Below are positions 1 through 12,875 of a DNA stretch of 64,000 bases, one piece after another. Source of the DNA: Sphaerisporangium siamense (GTDB taxonomy: Bacteria; Actinomycetota; Actinomycetes; Streptosporangiales; Streptosporangiaceae); NCBI RefSeq assembly GCF_014205275.1, contig NZ_JACHND010000001.1, forward strand, positions 6,262,001-6,326,000, in the 5' to 3' direction. The position numbers and the translations under genes were made by a program. The notes under the pieces are model-generated. The model was given only the letters and a program-made list of their open reading frames with translations. It had not been told where the DNA came from and did not search any database. Each line of letters starts with the position of its first letter. The stretch's first letter is position 1.

Positions 1-2189
1 CCGCCCGGCAGCGCCACGCGCAGGTACAGCTCGTTGACCAGGCCCCCGTTGCCGTTCAGCGACGGCGCGTCGGTCCACACCAGCGTGACGGCGAGCGGCA
101 GCCCCGGGTCGACGCCCTCCAGCCGGTAGAGCCTGCCCTCCCCCGTGCGCACCGCCTCGGCGGGGTCGTCGGCGAACAGCGTCCAGTTCTCGGGCCGCGG
201 CGTGACCGACCGGGCGACGTCCACCCGGCCGAACCCCGACACCATGTTGGGGCCGGAGGGCACCTCGCCGGGGAACTGGCCCGCCATCGGCACCGCCCCG
301 TTGACCAGGAACGCCTTGAGCAGGGCCGCCGACGGTTCGTGCCGGCGCTCGTGCACGAGGTGCTGGCGCACCAGGGCCGCCGCGCCCGCCACGAGCGGCG
401 TCGCCATGCTGGTGCCGCCGCTCCAGCAGTAGAACGGCCGCAGCGCCTCCCCCTGCGCCACCCGGCCCCACAGCGGTTCGGCGTCGGCGGGGAGCACCGA
501 GGACAGCAGGGACAGGATATTGGTGCCGGGGGCCACCACGTCGGGCTTGATCCGCCCGCCCGCGGCCGGGCCCCGCGAGGAGAACGCGGCCATCCCGTCG
601 GCGTTGTCGGAGACGTGCCCGGCCGCGGCGAGTCTCGGCCAGCGCAGCGCGCCGTTCCTGTCGCGTATCCGGTCCCAGGTGACGTCGCGGCCCGGCCGCG
701 GCCGCGAGCCCGCGGGACGGTCGTTCTCGCCCGCGCCCACCGCCAGGCAGTTCTTCGCCGTCGCCGGGGAGCCGACCGAGGTCTGGTCGATGACCCCGTC
801 GGCGTCGCGGTCGGCGCCCTCGTTGCCCGCCGCGAAAAGGATGAGCATGTCGGGGTTGTTCCAGATGAAGTCGTCGAGGACGCGCGCCTTGTCCGGGTAG
901 GCCCCGGCCGTGGCGGCGCCCCAGGAGTTGGTGTGGATGCGCGCCCCCGCCTCGTACGCCTGCCGGAACAGCACGCTCAGGTCGTCGGGCAGCCCGTACA
1001 GGCCGGTCGCGGGCGGCGGCCACTCCTCGTCCGGCGGGTCGCCGAGCTCGGCCGCGCTCTTCCACGCCAGCCGCTGGCCGATCGCCTGGAAGAACACCCG
1101 CGCCTCCGGCGCCACCCCGGCCGGGACGGTCGGGTCGCCGAGCGAGGCGGCGGCGCGGCCGTCGCCGAGCACGGAGCCGGTGACGTGGGTGCCGTGGCCG
1201 GAGTCCCGGTCGGCGGGCCCGTCGTCGTGGCCGGGCGCGTCGTGCGTGAACGGCGCGAGGACCGCGCGGGCCGGCCAGCTCACGATACCGGCCACCCGCC
1301 CCCGCACGTCGGGGTGCACGGTGGCCGGGTCACCGGTGTCGAGCCCGGAGTCGGCGACCGCGACGATCTGGTCGGCGCCGGTGAGCCGGTGCCCGGAGAA
1401 GACGTTGTCGGGCGGCACCCGCATCACCGTACGCGCGCGGTCGTTCAGCTCGCGCGGGAACACGTGCGGCAGGACCGCCTGCACGCCGCGCACGCCCGCG
1501 AGCGCGGCCAGGTCGCCGGCCCGCACGCTGGCCACCAGCGTGCGGTCGGTGGACCACAGGACGCTGCCGCCCGCCTCGCGGACCGCGCCGGACACCTCGC
1601 GCAGGCTCTCCCCCGGGAACACCGACACCTCCACCATGCGGCGCCGGTCGCCGTCCCCGTCCTCCCCGTCCATCGCGGCCAGCGCCGCGACGCCGAGCGT
1701 GCCGCCGTCGCGGCGCCGCACCTCGGGCGACACCTTCATCGCCGGACGGTAGGGGGTGACCCCGTCCACCCACGGCTTGTCCCGCAGCTCGGCCACGCGC
1801 GCGACGGGCATGCCGGCCAGCAGCGTGAACCCGGCCAGGCTGTCGTGGACGGCCGCGCCCAGGGCCCTCAGCTCGGCCAGCCACTCGGGGGCGGGCGGCC
1901 CGGCGAGCCGCACCAGGTAGTAGGCGGTGCGGTCCGGCGGCGGCTCCACCGGGGCCGACGCGTCGGCCAGCACCGCGTCGGTGAACGAGAACGAGTTGCC
2001 GTTCGTGAAGACCTCCTGCTCGCCGAGCGTCGTGGTCTCGACGCCGAGCCGTTCGACACCGCGCACCTGCGCGCCGGAGCCGCGGACGAGCATGGAGTTC
2101 GGGTACCGCGCGAGCACCTCGACGCCGGTCGCGCGGACCGCGCCGTCCTCATCGTTGGACCTCAGGGTCACGAGCACAGTGGTGGACAT
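1..2189 (-). CDS. S8 family serine peptidase (subtilase), C-terminus beyond the window
   Basis: The 729 visible codons encode a subtilisin-type endopeptidase. The catalytic triad is clear: Asp280 in VADSGLDTG, His332 in GHGTHVTG and Ser594 in GGTSMATPLVAG, with oxyanion Asn456 in AAGNEG. About 250 residues precede the catalytic domain and may act as propeptide or recognition region. The sequence after Ser594 continues into a beta-rich segment like KP-43-type subtilases and runs off the window. The ATG is chosen because GGGAGG lies five bases before it (2194-2199). The N-terminus (MSTTVLVTLRSNDEDG) has no hydrophobic signal segment, so the enzyme may be cytosolic or exported by an unusual route. 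It lies downstream of an NB-ARC regulator on the same strand and has a 26-base element at 2240-2265 upstream. The family is certain, the substrate is unknown. Confidence 0.93.
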   Translation of the reverse strand, partial: MSTTVLVTLRSNDEDGAVRATGVEVLARYPNSMLVRGSGAQVRGVERLGVETTTLGEQEVFTNGNSFSFTDAVLADASAPVEPPPDRTAYYLVRLAGPPAPEWLAELRALGAAVHDSLAGFTLLAGMPVARVAELRDKPWVDGVTPYRPAMKVSPEVRRRDGGTLGVAALAAMDGEDGDGDRRRMVEVSVFPGESLREVSGAVREAGGSVLWSTDRTLVASVRAGDLAALAGVRGVQAVLPHVFPRELNDRARTVMRVPPDNVFSGHRLTGADQIVAVADSGLDTGDPATVHPDVRGRVAGIVSWPARAVLAPFTHDAPGHDDGPADRDSGHGTHVTGSVLGDGRAAASLGDPTVPAGVAPEARVFFQAIGQRLAWKSAAELGDPPDEEWPPPATGLYGLPDDLSVLFRQAYEAGARIHTNSWGAATAGAYPDKARVLDDFIWNNPDMLILFAAGNEGADRDADGVIDQTSVGSPATAKNCLAVGAGENDRPAGSRPRPGRDVTWDRIRDRNGALRWPRLAAAGHVSDNADGMAAFSSRGPAAGGRIKPDVVAPGTNILSLLSSVLPADAEPLWGRVAQGEALRPFYCWSGGTSMATPLVAGAAALVRQHLVHERRHEPSAALLKAFLVNGAVPMAGQFPGEVPSGPNMVSGFGRVDVARSVTPRPENWTLFADDPAEAVRTGEGRLYRLEGVDPGLPLAVTLVWTDAPSLNGNGGLVNELYLRVALPG

Positions 2190-2239
2190 TCCAACCTCCC
2201 GAAGACGCTGCTCCGAGTGTGGGAGCGGGCGCCGGCGGG

Positions 2240-2265
2240 TTGACGGATCCGTACGCAACTGGCCG
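2240..2265 (-). promoter_or_regulatory. Shared 26-base upstream element, copy A (before the subtilase)
   Basis: Read toward the subtilase, this begins CGGCCAGTT and ends GGATCCGTCAA. It matches 23 of 26 bases of the element at 5003-5028. It ends 50 bases before the subtilase start. Same orientation and similar distance to the downstream gene in both places suggest a shared promoter or activator site. The binding factor is unknown. Confidence 0.55.
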
Positions 2266-2297
2266 GAAGCACGCGGAACCCGGCGATTAGGGGCCGC

Positions 2298-4925
2298 TCA
2301 GGCCAGGGAGGCGAGGAGGGCGCGGACCTCGGCGGCGGCCGGGACGCCGAGGGACTCGTAGATCTCCGCGCAGGCCTGCCATGACCGCCGCGCCTCGCCC
2401 GTCCGCCCCGCCGCGCGATCCAGGTGCGCCAGCCCGGACAGCGCGCGAGCCTCCTCCAGGCGGTCGCCGGTGCGGCCGGTGAGGGTGACCGCGGATCCGT
2501 AGGCGTGCGCGGCCTCCTCGTCCCGCCCGAGCGCGCGCAGCGCCTCGCCCAGGTCGACCAGGGCGCCCGCCTCGACCTCCACGTCCCCGATCTCGTGGGC
2601 CAGGGCGACGGCCCGCCGCAGGCAGGGGACGGCCTCCTCCCCTCGGCCCGCCCACAGGTGCAGCGCGCCGATGCCGTGCAGCCCGTCGGCCTCGCCGACG
2701 CGGTAGCCGCAGCGCCGGTAGAGGGGCAGGGCCTCCTCGTGGCGGGCCATGGCCTCGGCGAACCGGCCGAGCCGCGCCGAGGACCAGCCGAGGTTCGTGA
2801 GCGCCACCGCCTCCCCCACCTGGTTGCCGATCTCACGGTTGCGGGTGAGCGCCTGCCGGTAGTGGTCGAAGGCCCGCTCGTACTCGCCCATGCGCTCCAG
2901 GGTCGTGCCGAGGTTGTTCAGCACGCGGCTCTCGCCGATCCTGTCGCCGCACTCGCGGTAGATCTCCAGGGCGCCGCGCTGGTGGGCCAGCGCGCGCGGG
3001 TAGTCGCCGAGCTGCCGGAACACCGTGCCGAGGTTGTAGAGCGAGGCGCCCTCGCCGGGCCGGTCGCCGAGCCCGCGCCGGATCGCCAGGGCGGCCTCCA
3101 GGTGCCCGCGCGCCTCGCCGGTGTCGCCGAGCCGCCAGGCCATCGTGCCGAGGCCGTGCAGGGCGGCGGCCTGCCCCGCCAGGTCGCCGGTCTCGCGGTG
3201 GGCGGCGAGCGCGCGGCGGTAGTGGTCGATGGCCTCGGGGTAGGCGCCGGTCCGCATGTGGGCGGTGCCGAGCCTGACCAGGGCTCCGGCCTCGCCCGCG
3301 CGGTCGCCCGCGGCGCGGGCCGCGCGTGCCGCCAGGCCGTGCAGGGTGAGCCCGTCGCGGTAGTGCGCCCGGGTGTCCAGCCACTCGGCCAGGCGCCCGG
3401 ACAGCTCCCAGGTGTGCCGGGGCGACACCTCGGCGGCGGCCGCCGCGACGGCCAGCAGGTTCGGCCGCTCGGCGGTGAGCCACCCGTCGTCCCACCGGGC
3501 GCCCTCGGCGGCGCGCCCGGCCGTCTCCAGGTAGTGGTCGAAGAGCCGGGCCAGCGCGGCGCCGCGGCCGGGGTGCCCGGTGGACCGTTCCTGGGCGTAG
3601 GCGCGCAGCAGGTCGTGCATGCCGTACCGGCCGGGGGCGCTCTCTTCGAGCAGGTGGACGCGCAGCAGCGCCTCCAGCAGGCGGTAGGTCTCCGAGCGGC
3701 CGGCGCCGAACAGGGCGGCGGCGGCGTCGACGTCGATGTCCCGCCCCGGGTGCGCGCCGAGCGACTGGAAGGCGGCGAGGACGTCGGCGGGCAGGTGGCG
3801 GCACGACCAGGAGAACACCGCGCGCACCGCCGTGTAGTCGTCCTCGCCCGCGGCCAGCAGGTCGAGCCTGCGCGACTCGTCGCCGAGCTCGGCCACCAGC
3901 CCGGCCAGTGGCACCGACCGGCGTGCGGCGGCCAGTTCGGCGGCGATCCGCAGCGCGAGCGGCAGCCGGGCGCACCGCGCGGCGAGCTCCGCCGCCTGGC
4001 CGGGCTCGGCGTCCAGGCGGGGGCCGACGAGCCGGCGCAGCAGCGCGACCGCCTCGGCGGCGGACAGGACGTCCAGGTCGATGCGGATCGCGCCGTCCCT
4101 GGCGACCAGGCCGGGCAGCGTGCTGCGGCTGGTCACCAGCACCAGGCAGCGGGGTGTGCCGGGCAGCAGGTCGCGGACCTGGCCGGCCGAGTGGGCGTTG
4201 TCCAGCAGGACGAGCACGCGCCGGTCGGCCAGCAGCGTGCGGTAGCGCGCGGCGCGCGCGTCCAGGCCCGGGGGCACGGCCGCGTCGGGGACGCCGAGGG
4301 CGCGCAGGAACGTCTCCAGCGCCTCGGACGCGCGCACGGGGCTGTCGCGGTCGTAGCCGCGCAGGTTGATGTAGAGCTGGCCGTCGGGGAACGCGGCGGC
4401 GACGCGGTGCGCCCAGTGGACGGCGAGCGCCGTCTTGCCCACGCCCGCGGTGCCGGACAGGGCGAGGATGGGGACGGCGGTCGTGCCGGCGGCGGCCTCG
4501 GCGTGCAGGCGGTCCAGGTCGGCGAGCTGGGCCTCCCTGCCGGTGAACGCCGAGACGTCCCCGGGGAGCTGGCGTGGCCGCGCCGCCCTGTCGCCGGTGG
4601 GAGCCACGGGCACGAGGGAGGCGGTCACCGGCCCCGCGGGCGGCGTGTCCGGCGGGGCGGGCACGATCGTGCGTCCCGCCGCCAGCCACAGGTCGTGGAA
4701 GCGGGCGACGTCGCCGCCCAGCATCTCGGCGATCAGCTCGACCAGGCCCCAGCGCGGCAGGTTCGGCCCGGAGAACGCGGCCGAGATCGTGGTGTGGCTG
4801 CACCCGACCTCCCTGGCCATGGCGCGCAGGCTCGGCCACCCCGCCCGGTGGTGCTGCTCGTGCAGGACGTCGAAGAAGGCGCGGACGGGACCGTCGGGCA
4901 CCGCCGGCCTGGGTAGAGCTCCCAT
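2298..4925 (-). CDS. HTH/NB-ARC/TPR regulator (STAND NTPase, AfsR-like without a SARP domain)
   Basis: This is an 875-residue signal-transduction ATPase. Residues about 30-60 form a helix-turn-helix (VGCSHTTISAAFSGP). An NB-ARC domain follows, with Walker A GTAGVGKTA near 158-166 and Walker B LVLLDNAHS. The C-terminal half (about 500-870) is a run of TPR repeats, as in NLR-like switches where ligand or partner binding to the TPRs triggers nucleotide exchange. Unlike AfsR it has no BTAD/SARP activator region. It is read toward the subtilase and divergently from the small gene at 5086, and the two copies of a conserved 26-base element flank it. That makes it the natural candidate regulator of both neighbours, which is an inference. 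The start at 4925 gives the complete N-terminal HTH. Confidence 0.9.
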   Translation of the reverse strand: MGALPRPAVPDGPVRAFFDVLHEQHHRAGWPSLRAMAREVGCSHTTISAAFSGPNLPRWGLVELIAEMLGGDVARFHDLWLAAGRTIVPAPPDTPPAGPVTASLVPVAPTGDRAARPRQLPGDVSAFTGREAQLADLDRLHAEAAAGTTAVPILALSGTAGVGKTALAVHWAHRVAAAFPDGQLYINLRGYDRDSPVRASEALETFLRALGVPDAAVPPGLDARAARYRTLLADRRVLVLLDNAHSAGQVRDLLPGTPRCLVLVTSRSTLPGLVARDGAIRIDLDVLSAAEAVALLRRLVGPRLDAEPGQAAELAARCARLPLALRIAAELAAARRSVPLAGLVAELGDESRRLDLLAAGEDDYTAVRAVFSWSCRHLPADVLAAFQSLGAHPGRDIDVDAAAALFGAGRSETYRLLEALLRVHLLEESAPGRYGMHDLLRAYAQERSTGHPGRGAALARLFDHYLETAGRAAEGARWDDGWLTAERPNLLAVAAAAAEVSPRHTWELSGRLAEWLDTRAHYRDGLTLHGLAARAARAAGDRAGEAGALVRLGTAHMRTGAYPEAIDHYRRALAAHRETGDLAGQAAALHGLGTMAWRLGDTGEARGHLEAALAIRRGLGDRPGEGASLYNLGTVFRQLGDYPRALAHQRGALEIYRECGDRIGESRVLNNLGTTLERMGEYERAFDHYRQALTRNREIGNQVGEAVALTNLGWSSARLGRFAEAMARHEEALPLYRRCGYRVGEADGLHGIGALHLWAGRGEEAVPCLRRAVALAHEIGDVEVEAGALVDLGEALRALGRDEEAAHAYGSAVTLTGRTGDRLEEARALSGLAHLDRAAGRTGEARRSWQACAEIYESLGVPAAAEVRALLASLA

Positions 4926-5002
4926 TTCTGGCCTCCCCCGGGGATTGTCCCTCAGGAAAGCGGCCCATGGGGGGCCGTACCGGGAATGGGCCCGTGACGT
5001 GA

Positions 5003-5028
5003 CGGCCAGTTCTGTAAGGATCCGTCAA
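5003..5028 (+). promoter_or_regulatory. Shared 26-base upstream element, copy B (before the small gene)
   Basis: It starts CGGCCAGTT and ends GGATCCGTCAA, differing from copy A (2240-2265, minus strand) at three positions. It ends 57 bases before the start at 5086 and lies in the divergent interval with the NB-ARC regulator, so it could serve either gene. The GGATCC core is palindromic. Confidence 0.55.
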
Positions 5029-5085
5029 TTCAAGGCCGGAGCGCGGAACGCTGGAAGCGTCACCGACGAGAAGGAGCGACCCGAA

Positions 5086-5565
5086 ATGGCCGCGATCGAG
5101 GACGCCACCCTGCTGGGGCTCGCCGTGCGGGGTTTTCTCGCGCATCCGCCCCTGGACCTGATGGCGCGTGAGCCGCTGCCCGCATCGGCACTCAAGGAGA
5201 GAATCGAGGATTCCCTGGCCTATCTGGAGGCCAGCGGAATCCTGTCCGTGAACGACCACAATTCCTTACTGAATTTCGTCACCAAGGACGTCGTCCCCGG
5301 CGAACGGCCGGCCGAGCACCCGCCGGCCGTCGGCGCGGTGCTGGCGACCGTGGCGCGGCGCCTGCACGGCGACCCGGGCGCGGCGGCCGCGCTGGCGCAC
5401 GTGGCGGACGCGGCGGTGTCCGGTGCGGCCCACGGGGGCCCGCACGGCGCGCTGGCCTGCGCCTCGATCGCCGGCGTCCGCGTGCTGTCGGGCACCAAGA
5501 GCGACGACGACCTCGCCCTCCTGCGGGACAAGGCACTCGGCACCAAGAGCGCCTTCCGGCTCTGA
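5086..5565 (+). CDS. Small protein of unknown family (159 aa)
   Basis: The ATG at 5086 follows AAGGAGCG (5071-5078) at good spacing. The product is soluble-looking, with an N-terminal helical part (LAVRGFLAHPPLDLMARE, then ALKERIEDSLAYLEASG) and an alanine-rich middle, ending near GTKSDDDLALLRDKALGTKS. It has no signal peptide or membrane span, and I recognise no catalytic motif or family. It is divergent from the NB-ARC regulator and shares a 26-base upstream element with the subtilase. That context suggests a joint stimulus or function, possibly as substrate, inhibitor or effector. Just after the stop the DNA holds three copies of TGATCTGG (5568-5602) with no obvious role. Confidence 0.75.
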   Translation: MAAIEDATLLGLAVRGFLAHPPLDLMAREPLPASALKERIEDSLAYLEASGILSVNDHNSLLNFVTKDVVPGERPAEHPPAVGAVLATVARRLHGDPGAAAALAHVADAAVSGAAHGGPHGALACASIAGVRVLSGTKSDDDLALLRDKALGTKSAFRL

Positions 5566-5737
5566 CCTGATCTGGCCTGACTTGATCTGGCTTGATCTGG
5601 GGGAGGTTCCGCGCCGGGCGGGTGTCGCGGGGGTCTTGTCGGTCACCCGCCCGGCGCCGCTGGGCGGCCGGGGCCTGTGCTGTGCCCCCACCCTCCAGCC
5701 GCACGGCGGGCACAGGACGGCCCTCGCGGCCGGGGCG

Positions 5738-6634: not shown

Positions 6635-8953
6635 TTGTCCGGCGAATCTTTCGCCCACCTGCTCAAACGGCTCCGTCGTTCGGCCGGCCTGACGCAGGAG
6701 GAACTGGCGAACAAAGCCGGGATCAGCGCCAGGGCGGTGAGCGACCTGGAAAGGGGAATCAACCGCTCCGCCCGCAAGGACACCGCCCGCCTCCTCGCCG
6801 ACGCCCTCGGCCTCACCGGACAGATCCACGAGGAGTTCACGAGCGGCCGCAGGAAGCCGCCCTCGGTCGGCGGCGCGCGCCTGCCCGTGCCGCTGACGCC
6901 CCTCGTCGGCAGGGAGCGCGAAGTGCGGGCGGGGTGCGAGCGGCTGCGCGGGCCGAGCCGCCTGCTCACCCTCACCGGTCTCGGCGGCGTCGGCAAGACC
7001 CGCACGGCCCTGGCCATCGTCCACGAGCTGGCCCCCGACCTGCCCGACGGCGCCTACCTCGCCGACTTCTCCGAGGTGCGCGACGAGCAGACGATGCTGC
7101 ACACGCTCGCCCGCGCCCTGGACGTCCGCGACAGCGGCACCCGCCCCCCGGCCGAGTCGCTGGCCACGGCCCTGGAGGGCCGCGGGCCGCTGCTCGTGCT
7201 GGACAACTTCGAGCACCTGGTCGACAGCGCGCACGCCCTGTCCACGCTGCTCACGCGGTGCCCGGGGGTGAGGTTCCTGGTCACCAGCAGGCGTCCCCTG
7301 CGGGTGTACGGGGAGGACGAGTTCGTCGTCGGGCCGCTGCCGCCGCCCCCGCCGGGCGCGTCCCTGGAGGAGATTCGCGCCAACCCGGCCGTCACCCTGT
7401 TCACCCAGCGGGCGCGGGCCGTCCACGCCGGGTGGGAGGTGCACGAGGGCAACGCGGCCGTCGTCACCGGCATCTGCGCGCGCCTCGACGGCCTGCCCTT
7501 GGCGCTGGAGCTGGCCGCCGCCCGCATGAACGTCCTGTCCGCGGAGGCGCTGCACGAACGGCTCGGCGGCGCGCCGGGCGTGCTGGCGGCGGGGCCGCGC
7601 GACGCCACCCCGCGGCACCGCAGCCTGAACGCCACGCTGGACTGGAGCTACGAGCTGCTCGACGGCGACGCCCAGCGCCTGCTGCGCGAGCTGACCGTCT
7701 TCGCGGGCGGGTGGTCGCTGGAGGCGATGGAGCGGGTCTGCGGCGCCGGGCTGGACACGCTCGCCACCCTCATCGAGAACAACCTGGTGTGGCGGACCGA
7801 CCACCCGGGCGGCCCGCGCTACACCCTGCCGCACACCGTCCGCGAGTACGCCACCGCGCTCCCGCCCGCGGAGGGCGCCGCCGCCGCACCCGGCGGTGCC
7901 GCCGCGACCGCGCCGGGCGGGAACCCGGCGACGGCGGACGCGCATCTGCGCTGGATGTGCGGCTTCGCCGAGACGGCCGCGCACGAACTGACCGGCGCGG
8001 GCCAGCGGGCGTGGATCGACAACCTGGACCGCGAGTACGAGAACGCCCGCCAGGCGCTGCGCCACGCGGTCGCCGTCCGCGACGCCGAGAGCGCGCAACG
8101 CCTCGCCGGCGCGCTGTGGCGGTACTGGGAGATGCGGGGGCTGCTCATCGAGGGACGCCAATGGCTGGACCGGGCGCTCGCGCTCCCCGGGCCGACGCCG
8201 CCGTCGCTCGGCGCGCAGGCCCGCAAGGGCGCGGGCAACCTGGCCCGCGACCAGGGCGACCTGAAGGCCGCCGAGGCGTTCTACCGCTCCGCGCTGCTGC
8301 TGTTCGAGGCGGCCTCCGACAAGGCGGGCGTGGCCAGCGTCATCAACAACCTCGGCAACCTCTGGCTGGACGAGGGCGACCACGAGGCGGCGGCCCACTT
8401 CTACCAGGACGGGCTGGCGCGGTTCCAGGCCATCGGCGACGAGTGGAACGTGGCACTGCTGCTCAACAACCTCGCGCTGGCCCTGCGGCTCACCTCGGAC
8501 CTGGCGCGCGCGGGCGAGCTGGCCGAGCGCAGCGCGGCGCTGTTCCGCCGGCTCGGCGACCAGCGGGGCGAGGGCCGCGCGCTGGAGACCGTGGCCCGCG
8601 TCCTCGACCTGCGCGGCGAGCACGCCCGGGCGCTGCCGGTGCACCGGCGCGCGCTGCTGCTGCGGCACCGGGTGGGCGACCTGGCCGGGGTCGCCCGTTC
8701 CCTCGAAGGGCTGGCCCGCTCGCACAGCGAGGTGGGCGACCTGAACCTGGCGGCCCGGCTGCTCGGCCAGGCCGAGTGCCTGCGCCAGACCACCGGCGAG
8801 GCGTTCACCCACGACGACGGCGTCGAGTACGCCAGAACCCTCAACGCCCTGCGCGACGGTCTGACCCCCGCCGTCCTCACCGCCACCATGGACGCCGGCC
8901 GCGCCGCGGACCTGGCGGAGGTGATCACCTCACTGGACCTGGAACGGATGTAG
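6635..8953 (+). CDS. XRE-HTH/ATPase/TPR transcriptional regulator
   Basis: This is a 772-residue regulator. Residues 1-60 are a textbook XRE helix-turn-helix (LKRLRRSAGLTQEELANKAGISARAVSDLERG). A spacer leads to an NB-ARC-type ATPase with Walker A GLGGVGKTRTA (about 115-125) and Walker B LLVLDNFEHL, typical of the actinobacterial AfsR/MalT-like ATPases. The C-terminal half (about 480-750) is helical with TPR motifs. The TTG at 6635 is chosen because GGAGGGGG (6621-6628) stands at correct spacing and the XRE domain then begins at once. The frame remains open upstream but adds only Arg-rich sequence. The target is unknown. It is the second such regulator in 10 kb and the large membrane protein follows in the same direction. 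Confidence 0.9.
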   Translation: MSGESFAHLLKRLRRSAGLTQEELANKAGISARAVSDLERGINRSARKDTARLLADALGLTGQIHEEFTSGRRKPPSVGGARLPVPLTPLVGREREVRAGCERLRGPSRLLTLTGLGGVGKTRTALAIVHELAPDLPDGAYLADFSEVRDEQTMLHTLARALDVRDSGTRPPAESLATALEGRGPLLVLDNFEHLVDSAHALSTLLTRCPGVRFLVTSRRPLRVYGEDEFVVGPLPPPPPGASLEEIRANPAVTLFTQRARAVHAGWEVHEGNAAVVTGICARLDGLPLALELAAARMNVLSAEALHERLGGAPGVLAAGPRDATPRHRSLNATLDWSYELLDGDAQRLLRELTVFAGGWSLEAMERVCGAGLDTLATLIENNLVWRTDHPGGPRYTLPHTVREYATALPPAEGAAAAPGGAAATAPGGNPATADAHLRWMCGFAETAAHELTGAGQRAWIDNLDREYENARQALRHAVAVRDAESAQRLAGALWRYWEMRGLLIEGRQWLDRALALPGPTPPSLGAQARKGAGNLARDQGDLKAAEAFYRSALLLFEAASDKAGVASVINNLGNLWLDEGDHEAAAHFYQDGLARFQAIGDEWNVALLLNNLALALRLTSDLARAGELAERSAALFRRLGDQRGEGRALETVARVLDLRGEHARALPVHRRALLLRHRVGDLAGVARSLEGLARSHSEVGDLNLAARLLGQAECLRQTTGEAFTHDDGVEYARTLNALRDGLTPAVLTATMDAGRAADLAEVITSLDLERM

Positions 8954-12110: not shown

Positions 12111-12740
12111 ATGACCGAGCGGCTCCCGGCGGGCGACACCAGCCCCCTCGACAGGGACACCCCCGCGCCCGAGACCCCACCGGCGCGGGAGCGGTCCGAC
12201 GCGGCGCGGAACCGGGCGCGGGTGCTCGCCGCGGCGGAGCGGCTCTTCGCCACGACGGACGCCCGGCAGGTGACGATGGAGGACATCGCACGCGCCGCCG
12301 GAGTCGGCCGCGCGACGCTGTACCGCCGCTACCCCGACCCCGCCTCGATCGCCGTCGCCCTGCTCGACGAGCACGAGCGCCGCCTGCAGGAGCACATCCT
12401 GCGCGGCGAGCCGCCCCTCGGCCCCGGCGCCTCCCCCGCCGACCGGCTCGCCGCCTTCTACGCGGCGTCGGTGACCCTGCTGGAGGACCACCTCCACCTG
12501 GCGCTCGGCGCCGAGGTGGGGCAGGCGAGGTTCGCCGCGGGAGCGTACGGCTTCTGGCGGGCCCACGTGCGCGTGCTGCTCGCCGAGGCCGGCGTCCCCG
12601 ACCCCGACGCGGCCGCCGACACCGCCCTGGCCCCCCTCGCCCCGGATCTGTACCGCTTCCAGCGCCACACCGCCGGCCTGTCCAAGGAGCGCCTCGTCAC
12701 GTCGCTGACGTGGCTGGCCCGCCGCCTGACGACCACCTGA
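12111..12740 (+). CDS. TetR/AcrR family transcriptional repressor
   Basis: This is a 209-residue regulator. After a Pro-rich 25-residue leader, residues about 27-75 form the TetR DNA-binding domain (ARNRARVLAAAERLFATTDARQ, then EDIARAAGVGRATLYRRYPD). The remainder is the variable all-helical ligand and dimerisation domain. The ATG has no Shine-Dalgarno sequence but sits seven bases after TACGAT, consistent with a leaderless transcript. It is divergent from the DMT exporter, with one inverted-repeat operator near each start. It probably represses both genes until a transported compound binds, a standard arrangement but inferred here. Confidence 0.92.
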   Translation: MTERLPAGDTSPLDRDTPAPETPPARERSDAARNRARVLAAAERLFATTDARQVTMEDIARAAGVGRATLYRRYPDPASIAVALLDEHERRLQEHILRGEPPLGPGASPADRLAAFYAASVTLLEDHLHLALGAEVGQARFAAGAYGFWRAHVRVLLAEAGVPDPDAAADTALAPLAPDLYRFQRHTAGLSKERLVTSLTWLARRLTTT

Positions 12741-12875
12741 CCCGGCCTCACGGGGCCCTGCCCCGTGTGCCACGACCCGTGCCGGTAGCGCGGCGTACGG
12801 CGGCACGGCCGGGGTAGCGTGCGGGGGCGGGGCCGCGCGGGTGCGCGGTCCGGGTGACGAGACGCGGGAGGCGAC

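Follow-up and report, generated by a model that had tools for sequence, protein, structure and literature searches.

A STAND-type regulator gene, a KP-43-type subtilase gene and a small gene as a predicted transcription-switch module in Sphaerisporangium siamense

Three genes and a repeated element

A stretch of 64,000 nucleotides from Sphaerisporangium siamense (contig NZ_JACHND010000001.1, positions 6,262,001 to 6,326,000 of the forward strand; the whole stretch is called the window hereafter, and position 1 is its first base) begins with three genes that share two copies of a 26-base element. The genes encode a subtilisin-like protease (subtilase; 1..2189, minus strand), a regulator of 875 amino acids with helix-turn-helix (HTH), NB-ARC and TPR parts (2298..4925, minus strand) and a small protein of 159 amino acids (5086..5565, plus strand). 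One copy of the element lies between the regulator gene and the co-directional subtilase gene, and the other in the region from which the regulator and small genes diverge.

The reverse complement of positions 2240-2265 matched the plus strand at 5003-5028 in 23 of 26 bases, with 50 bases to the ATG at 2189 (minus strand) and 57 bases to the ATG at 5086 (plus strand). Both copies point the same way relative to their genes and are therefore inverted on the chromosome, on either side of the NB-ARC gene; the match, the distances and the shared orientation agree with the original prediction made for this DNA. The best 26-base match between the two intergenic regions was 23, and 2,000 dinucleotide shuffles gave 15-21. 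Beyond the 26 bases the similarity of both regions was at background level, which argues against a recent duplication. These two are the only close copies of the element in the 8.5 Mb genome, where it is thus no common repeat: a 25-mer gave 2 matches at up to 3 mismatches, both at this locus, and a 21-mer core gave the same 2 sites and 2 other genomic places, each with 3 mismatches.

The subtilase gene runs out of the window to about -213, near which its stop lies, so that the last 71 of its codons are left of the window; the full-length product (800 amino acids) was read from locus L002. It matched Pfam Peptidase_S8 (E 1.3e-38) and PDB entry 1wmd (E 1.7e-62), the latter over residues 249-493 and 524-769, corresponding to the catalytic domain and the C-terminal part. 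The motifs DSGL (280), HGTHV (332) and GTSMA (592) supply the D/H/S triad, and an S8 catalytic domain with this triad plus a C-terminal domain places the protein in the KP-43 type. Judged by hydropathy alone, no signal-like start was apparent, the 12-residue maximum near the N-terminus being 1.03, and 0.83-1.48 in three orthologues. Full-length orthologues with similar starts were found in two Glycomyces species (57-59% identity). A weak match to the subtilase N-terminus in genome G100 was antisense to an NB-ARC gene and was rejected.

In the regulator, Pfam recognised NB-ARC (2.4e-08) and TPR_12 (2.4e-50), and the translation contains the Walker A motif GTAGVGKT. The HTH, at about residues 13-82, was placed by alignment. 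Of the architecture originally predicted, the NB-ARC and TPR parts were therefore borne out by Pfam, but its HTH models remained below cut-off. The combination of an NB-ARC-type NTPase carrying a Walker A motif with a repeat sensor makes the protein a STAND (NLR-like) regulator. A single-sequence model of its N-terminal 90 residues showed five helices at low confidence (predicted local distance difference test, pLDDT, 68). No SARP DNA-binding domain was found by Pfam at E up to 0.1, and the NCBIfam AfsR model scored 412 bits against a cut-off of 1430, with its best stretch at residues 111-471. Relatives of the HTH were also present on 16 plasmid records, each at less than 60% identity.

The small protein had no family match in Pfam, NCBIfam, PADLOC or PHROGs, and searches with it turned up no relative in a scan of genome contigs, in the PDB, or among plasmids or phages. 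Its AlphaFold model was all-helical and of low confidence (pLDDT 47.5). Relatives were found only at loci L154 (38% identity, E 1.1e-21) and L155 (38%, E 2.4e-06), described below, and searches with the single protein had missed both. In a search of 198 relatives, the lone weak match, in G069, lay inside a gene that looked substrate-binding/VWA-like by eye and was considered spurious; matches in 52 of 396 phylum genomes at E up to 0.05 (own genome included, best other 9e-4) were taken as noise without inspection. The L154 protein gave two weak plasmid matches (E 0.9), both S53 peptidases. The 19-residue hydropathy reached 2.1 in the L154 protein and about 1.3 in those of the window and of L155 (genome G206), and the case for a holin-like identity is weak.

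Comparison with a congener, G007, delimited the three genes as a unit. Thirteen flanking genes of the region were conserved there, with protein identities of 84-99% that reached at least 93% for 8 of these genes, and an HD-domain gene and a secreted-protein gene adjoin, with 5 bases in place of the 5,839 (-238 to 5600) of the window's genome. This segment, of which positions 1..5600 lie inside the window, contains the subtilase, the regulator, the small gene and no other recognised gene; no recombinase was seen among its recognised genes. As G007 lacks exactly these three, they come or go together. Short TGATCTGG repeats at 5566-5600 end the inserted segment, and TGATC also occurs in the left flank, which may hint at a microhomology-driven insertion. 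At L122 (9132-13472), five genes of G007 (methyltransferase-like, glycosyltransferase-like, epimerase-like and two others) separate the neighbouring NB-ARC gene from the gene that follows it; they have no counterpart at this place in the window's genome.

The element beside relatives of the regulator

At a cut-off of E 1e-5, a search with the 90-residue HTH region found matches in 66 of 297 genomes; in five, among them the window's own, identity was at least 60%. A five-sequence profile matched 27 of 394 genomes at a cut-off of E 1e-10. Nine of these, again counting the window's own, had E values no higher than 1.2e-37, and the next genome followed at 1.3e-18. Both sets overlap, and combined they amount to ten genomes with a close HTH.

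The complete arrangement was found again in G320, from another genus of the family (L154), where a subtilase (65% identity), a regulator (69% over most of its length) and the small gene follow the same order and orientation, with the element at both positions. Since the neighbours there resemble, by eye, ribosomal-protein and ssb genes, the module occupies a different genomic place. A 15-base tandem repeat at about 9100-9230 of L154 codes, also by eye, for the linker between HTH and NB-ARC in G320.

The candidate effector gene varied at other loci. L155 has a regulator (54%), a small gene and two elements but no subtilase within the 19.5 kb examined; a protein with SLT-like and PG_binding_1 matches (transglycosylase-like), without obvious signal, takes the effector position. 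L156 and L196 (G791 and G990, from another family of the class) combine the element with a small protein bearing a hydrophobic segment, a subtilase and a regulator of 44-45% identity. The subtilase of G791 is KP-43-type (1wmd, E 2.5e-34), with D, H and S aligned in place. The 133/138-amino-acid proteins of G791/G990 reached 2.8-2.9 in 19-residue hydropathy; homology of either these or the 184/179-amino-acid proteins of the same genomes to the small protein is not established. At L199 (G847; regulator 49%), the element precedes a protein without obvious signal that has a weak, below cut-off match to an M15 peptidase (E 0.0011) and none in PDB or PHROGs. Proteins of 448, 365 and 727 amino acids follow the cell-wall enzymes of G206 and G847 (L155 6466-9032, L199 5318-7501), none of them above the Pfam cut-off.

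The same HTH also occurs in longer proteins of four genomes of family f28, with an AAA_16 match in L157 and L197, where Pfam was run; in G842, three such HTH-ATPase regulators stand in tandem. Beside regulators of this kind, the element lies upstream of a small peptide, probably secreted, in which the pattern PCF...W...GPxPTCP recurs (L157 6036-6533, L198 about 12420-12780, L197 13663-14056). A more distant HTH is fused to WD40 repeats at L202 4866-7418 (by Pfam) and L203 2751-5203 (similar), each with a strong operator upstream, and that of L202 points to a putative secreted protein. L186 has a site of score 28.3 (2077, minus strand) beside a more distant HTH gene of G977 (family f20). As the same operator thus accompanies HTH-AAA_16 and HTH-WD40 regulators too, its reader appears to be the HTH.

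Aligned sites consist of three GTCAAC-like hexamers at exactly 10-base spacing, with the consensus GKCCAG-TTYC-GTCARC-NTYC-GTCAAC. In the window, operator 1 reads GGCCAG-TTGC-GTACGG-ATCC-GTCAAC (2239..2264, minus strand), and operator 2, between the divergent regulator and small genes, GGCCAG-TTCT-GTAAGG-ATCC-GTCAAT (5004..5029, plus strand). A matrix was built from eight sites of five groups, leaving each group out in turn, and the sites of every group were the top matches of their own loci. In the 64-kb window, the left-out elements scored 29.8 and 24.9, operator 2 being the top match and operator 1 the second, and the next best place scored 11.7. Loci with a close HTH that had not entered the matrix gave 25.3 (L197), 22.7 (L199) and a marginal 16.1 (L200). 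Altogether, the operator was present at the regulator locus in 10/10 genomes with a close HTH (one marginal), versus 0/29 loci of NB-ARC relatives.

Those 29 belong to a control set of 35 loci (244,933 bases) without any matrix site at 16 or more. They had been collected with the whole regulator, the match starting at residue 61 or later in 25 of them, and extend some 1.5 kb beyond the match in both directions. With the reversed matrix, no place in 12 positive loci reached 14. Whole genomes were also searched, allowing up to 2 mismatches, with a degenerate 25-mer derived from the sites: two matches were found in each of the window's own genome (G000), G320 and G206 and a single one in G791 and in G183, every one of them at the regulator locus; G007, which lacks the module, had one match elsewhere.

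An order-wide scan with the 21-mer that allowed up to 3 mismatches gave matches in 218 of 297 genomes, G320 among them, mostly by chance; because CTAG is rare, its reversed control was biased. The three module proteins were sought in all 17 loci taken from 21-mer matches, with no match. Genes were read in 9 of these (in L046 none was called near the site): L049 and L050 turned out to be TetR/MFS loci, and a pair of matches 2.7 kb apart in G314/G047 lay upstream of unrelated genes. Within the window, a second HTH regulator (HTH_31, with AAA and TPR) lies close by at 6635-8953 and is present in G007 at 93%; no operator of the triple-hexamer type was found near it.

Promoter geometry, proposed mechanism and alternatives

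Seventeen sites were aligned with their downstream regions. Before the count, four were dropped: those of G990 and G938, whose operator sequences equal those of G791 and G183, and the second, partial site in both G791 and G990. Among the 13 promoters counted, base 19 after the operator was A in 12 and base 23 was T in all 13. For the best A/T pair this makes 25 of 26, a count that 20,000 random circular shifts never brought above 16; the mean pairwise identity downstream was 0.37. Among the dropped sites, both bases were present in G938, the T alone in G990 and neither in the two partial sites. In a -10 box, the best-kept positions are the second base, A, and the sixth, T, to which the two conserved bases correspond. 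The predicted boxes of the window, CACACT for the subtilase (2216..2221, minus strand) and AACGCT for the small gene (5047..5052, plus strand), are weak, lack the first T and lie exactly 17 bases after the third hexamer, which would accordingly take the place of a -35 box. Transcription is predicted to start near 2209 (minus strand) and 5059 (plus strand).

The locus is probably a mobile, self-contained STAND (NLR-like) transcription-switch module that would activate the small helical protein and an exchangeable hydrolase through the two operators. The TPR part would sense a signal and the NB-ARC part would switch, whereas the N-terminal HTH would bind both copies of the triple operator. With hexamers one helical turn (10 bp) apart, protomers could bind next to one another along the same face of the DNA, and at a weak -10 box in which A2 and T6 are kept, the contact missing at the -35 place would come from the bound regulator. 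This would turn on the small protein and the effector, here a KP-43-type subtilase without obvious export signal that may act inside the cell or after cell lysis. The common control proposed in the original prediction gained support from the specificity of the site in the genome, the L154 triad with both sites, the empty site of G007, the association of site and HTH, and the -10 box at fixed distance. On these sequence data, control of both genes by the operators is strongly supported, and we infer from the geometry that it consists in activation rather than repression. The presence of a subtilase, a transglycosylase-like protein or a possible M15 peptidase at the same operator suggests that the effector slot is exchangeable.

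Several observations weigh against this reading. Only two genomes (G000 and G320) showed the triad together with both sites, and at the two Glycomyces loci with a subtilase orthologue there was neither a regulator or small-gene match nor an element at up to 5 mismatches. Neighbourhood of the three genes in relatives, a condition set by the original prediction, holds in L154 but not in Glycomyces, where the subtilase stands alone, nor in ten other genomes of the genus, in which neither the subtilase N-terminus nor the small gene had a match. The middle hexamers of the window (GTACGG, GTAAGG) are degenerate, and the low-confidence HTH model had no fold match at E 0.001. Among nine long loci with a more distant HTH, a strong site was present in two (L202, 27.2; L203, 29.7), L159 had 16.5 and six had nothing at 12 or more; 44 short loci of this kind (about 3 kb, 41 different genes) included 3 with a site above 20 (those of L202 and L203, and L186). 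As distant-HTH loci are mostly without a site, the rule holds for close HTHs and quickly thins beyond them. Another 44 loci (496,881 bases) had 7 sites at 16 or more, six of them (17.8-25.1, the best in L047 with 25.1) at places picked by pattern and the other in L086 (19.1). Because unrelated places reach 16-25, the G814 site (16.1) may be due to chance and that of G847 (22.7) is not beyond doubt.

It is rather unlikely that the regulator acts on the same operators as a repressor, relieved by a signal, and is also autoregulated through operator 2, beginning 78 bases upstream of the regulator's start. Operator 2 does lie within the divergent region, a protein bound over the -35 place could block RNA polymerase, and the HTH model had its top fold matches, none of them significant, with lambda repressor and other Cro/CI-type proteins. 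However, a search for a sigma-70 consensus promoter there found none, and -10 boxes without the first T are as expected of activator-dependent promoters; moreover AfsR, with a related NB-ARC/TPR part, is described as an activator (PMC10936776). It is very unlikely that an alternative sigma factor recognises the element as its promoter type, or that an unrelated regulator binds it, with the NB-ARC protein as a bystander: only two copies exist in the genome, the element accompanies close versions of the HTH in four families (f1, f19, f21, f28) with different ATPase parts, and it is absent from the 29 loci of NB-ARC relatives within their reach. The -10-like box at fixed distance would fit such a reading.

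The copies are 26-base inverted repeats on both sides of one gene, an arrangement that would suit the termini of a mobile element or of an invertible segment carrying the NB-ARC gene. Terminal inverted repeats were nevertheless rejected, since the real insertion ends, at -238 and 5600, lie outside the copies; no recombinase was recognised in the segment, no target duplication was visible by eye, and in relatives the copies keep promoter distance and flank other gene arrangements, which leaves this explanation extremely improbable. A coincidence of three unrelated genes with a chance match would agree with a subtilase found alone elsewhere and a very rare small gene, but the maximum of 21 in the shuffles, the conservation of the module in L154 and its joint presence or absence relative to G007 make it scarcely credible.

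Relation to known systems and possible role

Catalytic domain and C-terminal part of the subtilase align with KP-43/SubHal subtilases (PDB 1wmd, 5fax), from which it differs in about 250 residues before the aligned part, the lack of an obvious signal and the tie to a STAND regulator. IetAS is an anti-phage system of an ATPase and a subtilase, and the neighbourhood of an ATPase gene and a subtilase gene is the same here. In contrast, the NCBIfam model NF042956 scored 34.6 bits against a cut-off of 900, and the ATPase of the window is an HTH-NB-ARC-TPR regulator. PADLOC, applied to the three module proteins at E up to 0.1, matched no one system: generic subtilase, weak partial IetS, TPR and TRIP13 models alone were hit, and the small protein had none. 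The relatives' proteins that were tested likewise gave generic or partial models only.

The DNA-binding domain of MalT is C-terminal and of LuxR type, whereas the HTH of the window's regulator is N-terminal. Both proteins have in common an ATPase switch with a TPR sensor in a transcription factor (PMC6468293, PMC4381067). AfsR and the large SARPs of Streptomyces share with the regulator an NB-ARC/NOD plus TPR part, a direct-repeat operator and a weak -10 box; AfsR is reported to activate a promoter with a poor -35 and a suboptimal -10 (CACTGT) via direct repeats that overlap the -35 (PMC10936776). The regulator differs in having no SARP domain match, another HTH and sites only beside its own gene. 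The spacing differs as well: the AfsR/large SARP repeats described are 11 or 22 bp apart with the last one 8 bp from the -10 (PMC10936776), whereas the 13 promoters have a 10-bp period and 17 bp to the predicted -10. The module would thus activate as AfsR does, with another DNA-binding domain and another geometry.

TPR-bearing STAND/AP-ATPases and exchangeable effectors, including peptidase and peptidoglycan-acting domains, are also described in NTP-dependent conflict systems of multicellular bacteria (PMC7159879). The effectors described there are fused or coupled through effector-associated domains (EADs), and the coupling here would run through DNA operators. HTH domains as part of the effector module are mentioned in that account, as are linked CRP-like transcription factors, and the word 'promoter' does not occur in its main text (PMC7159879). 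Judged by titles and abstract openings, no published description of this HTH, operator or module was found in the literature.

A role of the module in defence or lysis is a hypothesis, and so is the stress, defence or cell-fate function originally proposed. Proteases or cell-wall enzymes without obvious export signals, together with a small helical or membrane-anchored protein, would fit controlled self-damage, lysis or defence. More tentatively, and with considerable doubt, the loci may represent a class of NLR-like modules in mycelial actinobacteria that act through DNA and not through protein contact. A STAND sensor with a dedicated HTH would read a triple-GTCAAC code and switch on a two-part suicide or lysis cassette, made of a small membrane-active or helical partner and an exchangeable hydrolase without export signal (subtilase, lytic transglycosylase or M15 peptidase).

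To our knowledge, NLR-like ATPases are abundant in actinobacteria and their target genes are known for few. That the same operator precedes a protease in some genomes but cell-wall enzymes elsewhere suggests an inducible effector slot. The DNA site linked to this HTH can be read from the sequence down to the spacing of the -10 box, and therefore the targets of close relatives of the regulator should be predictable in other genomes.

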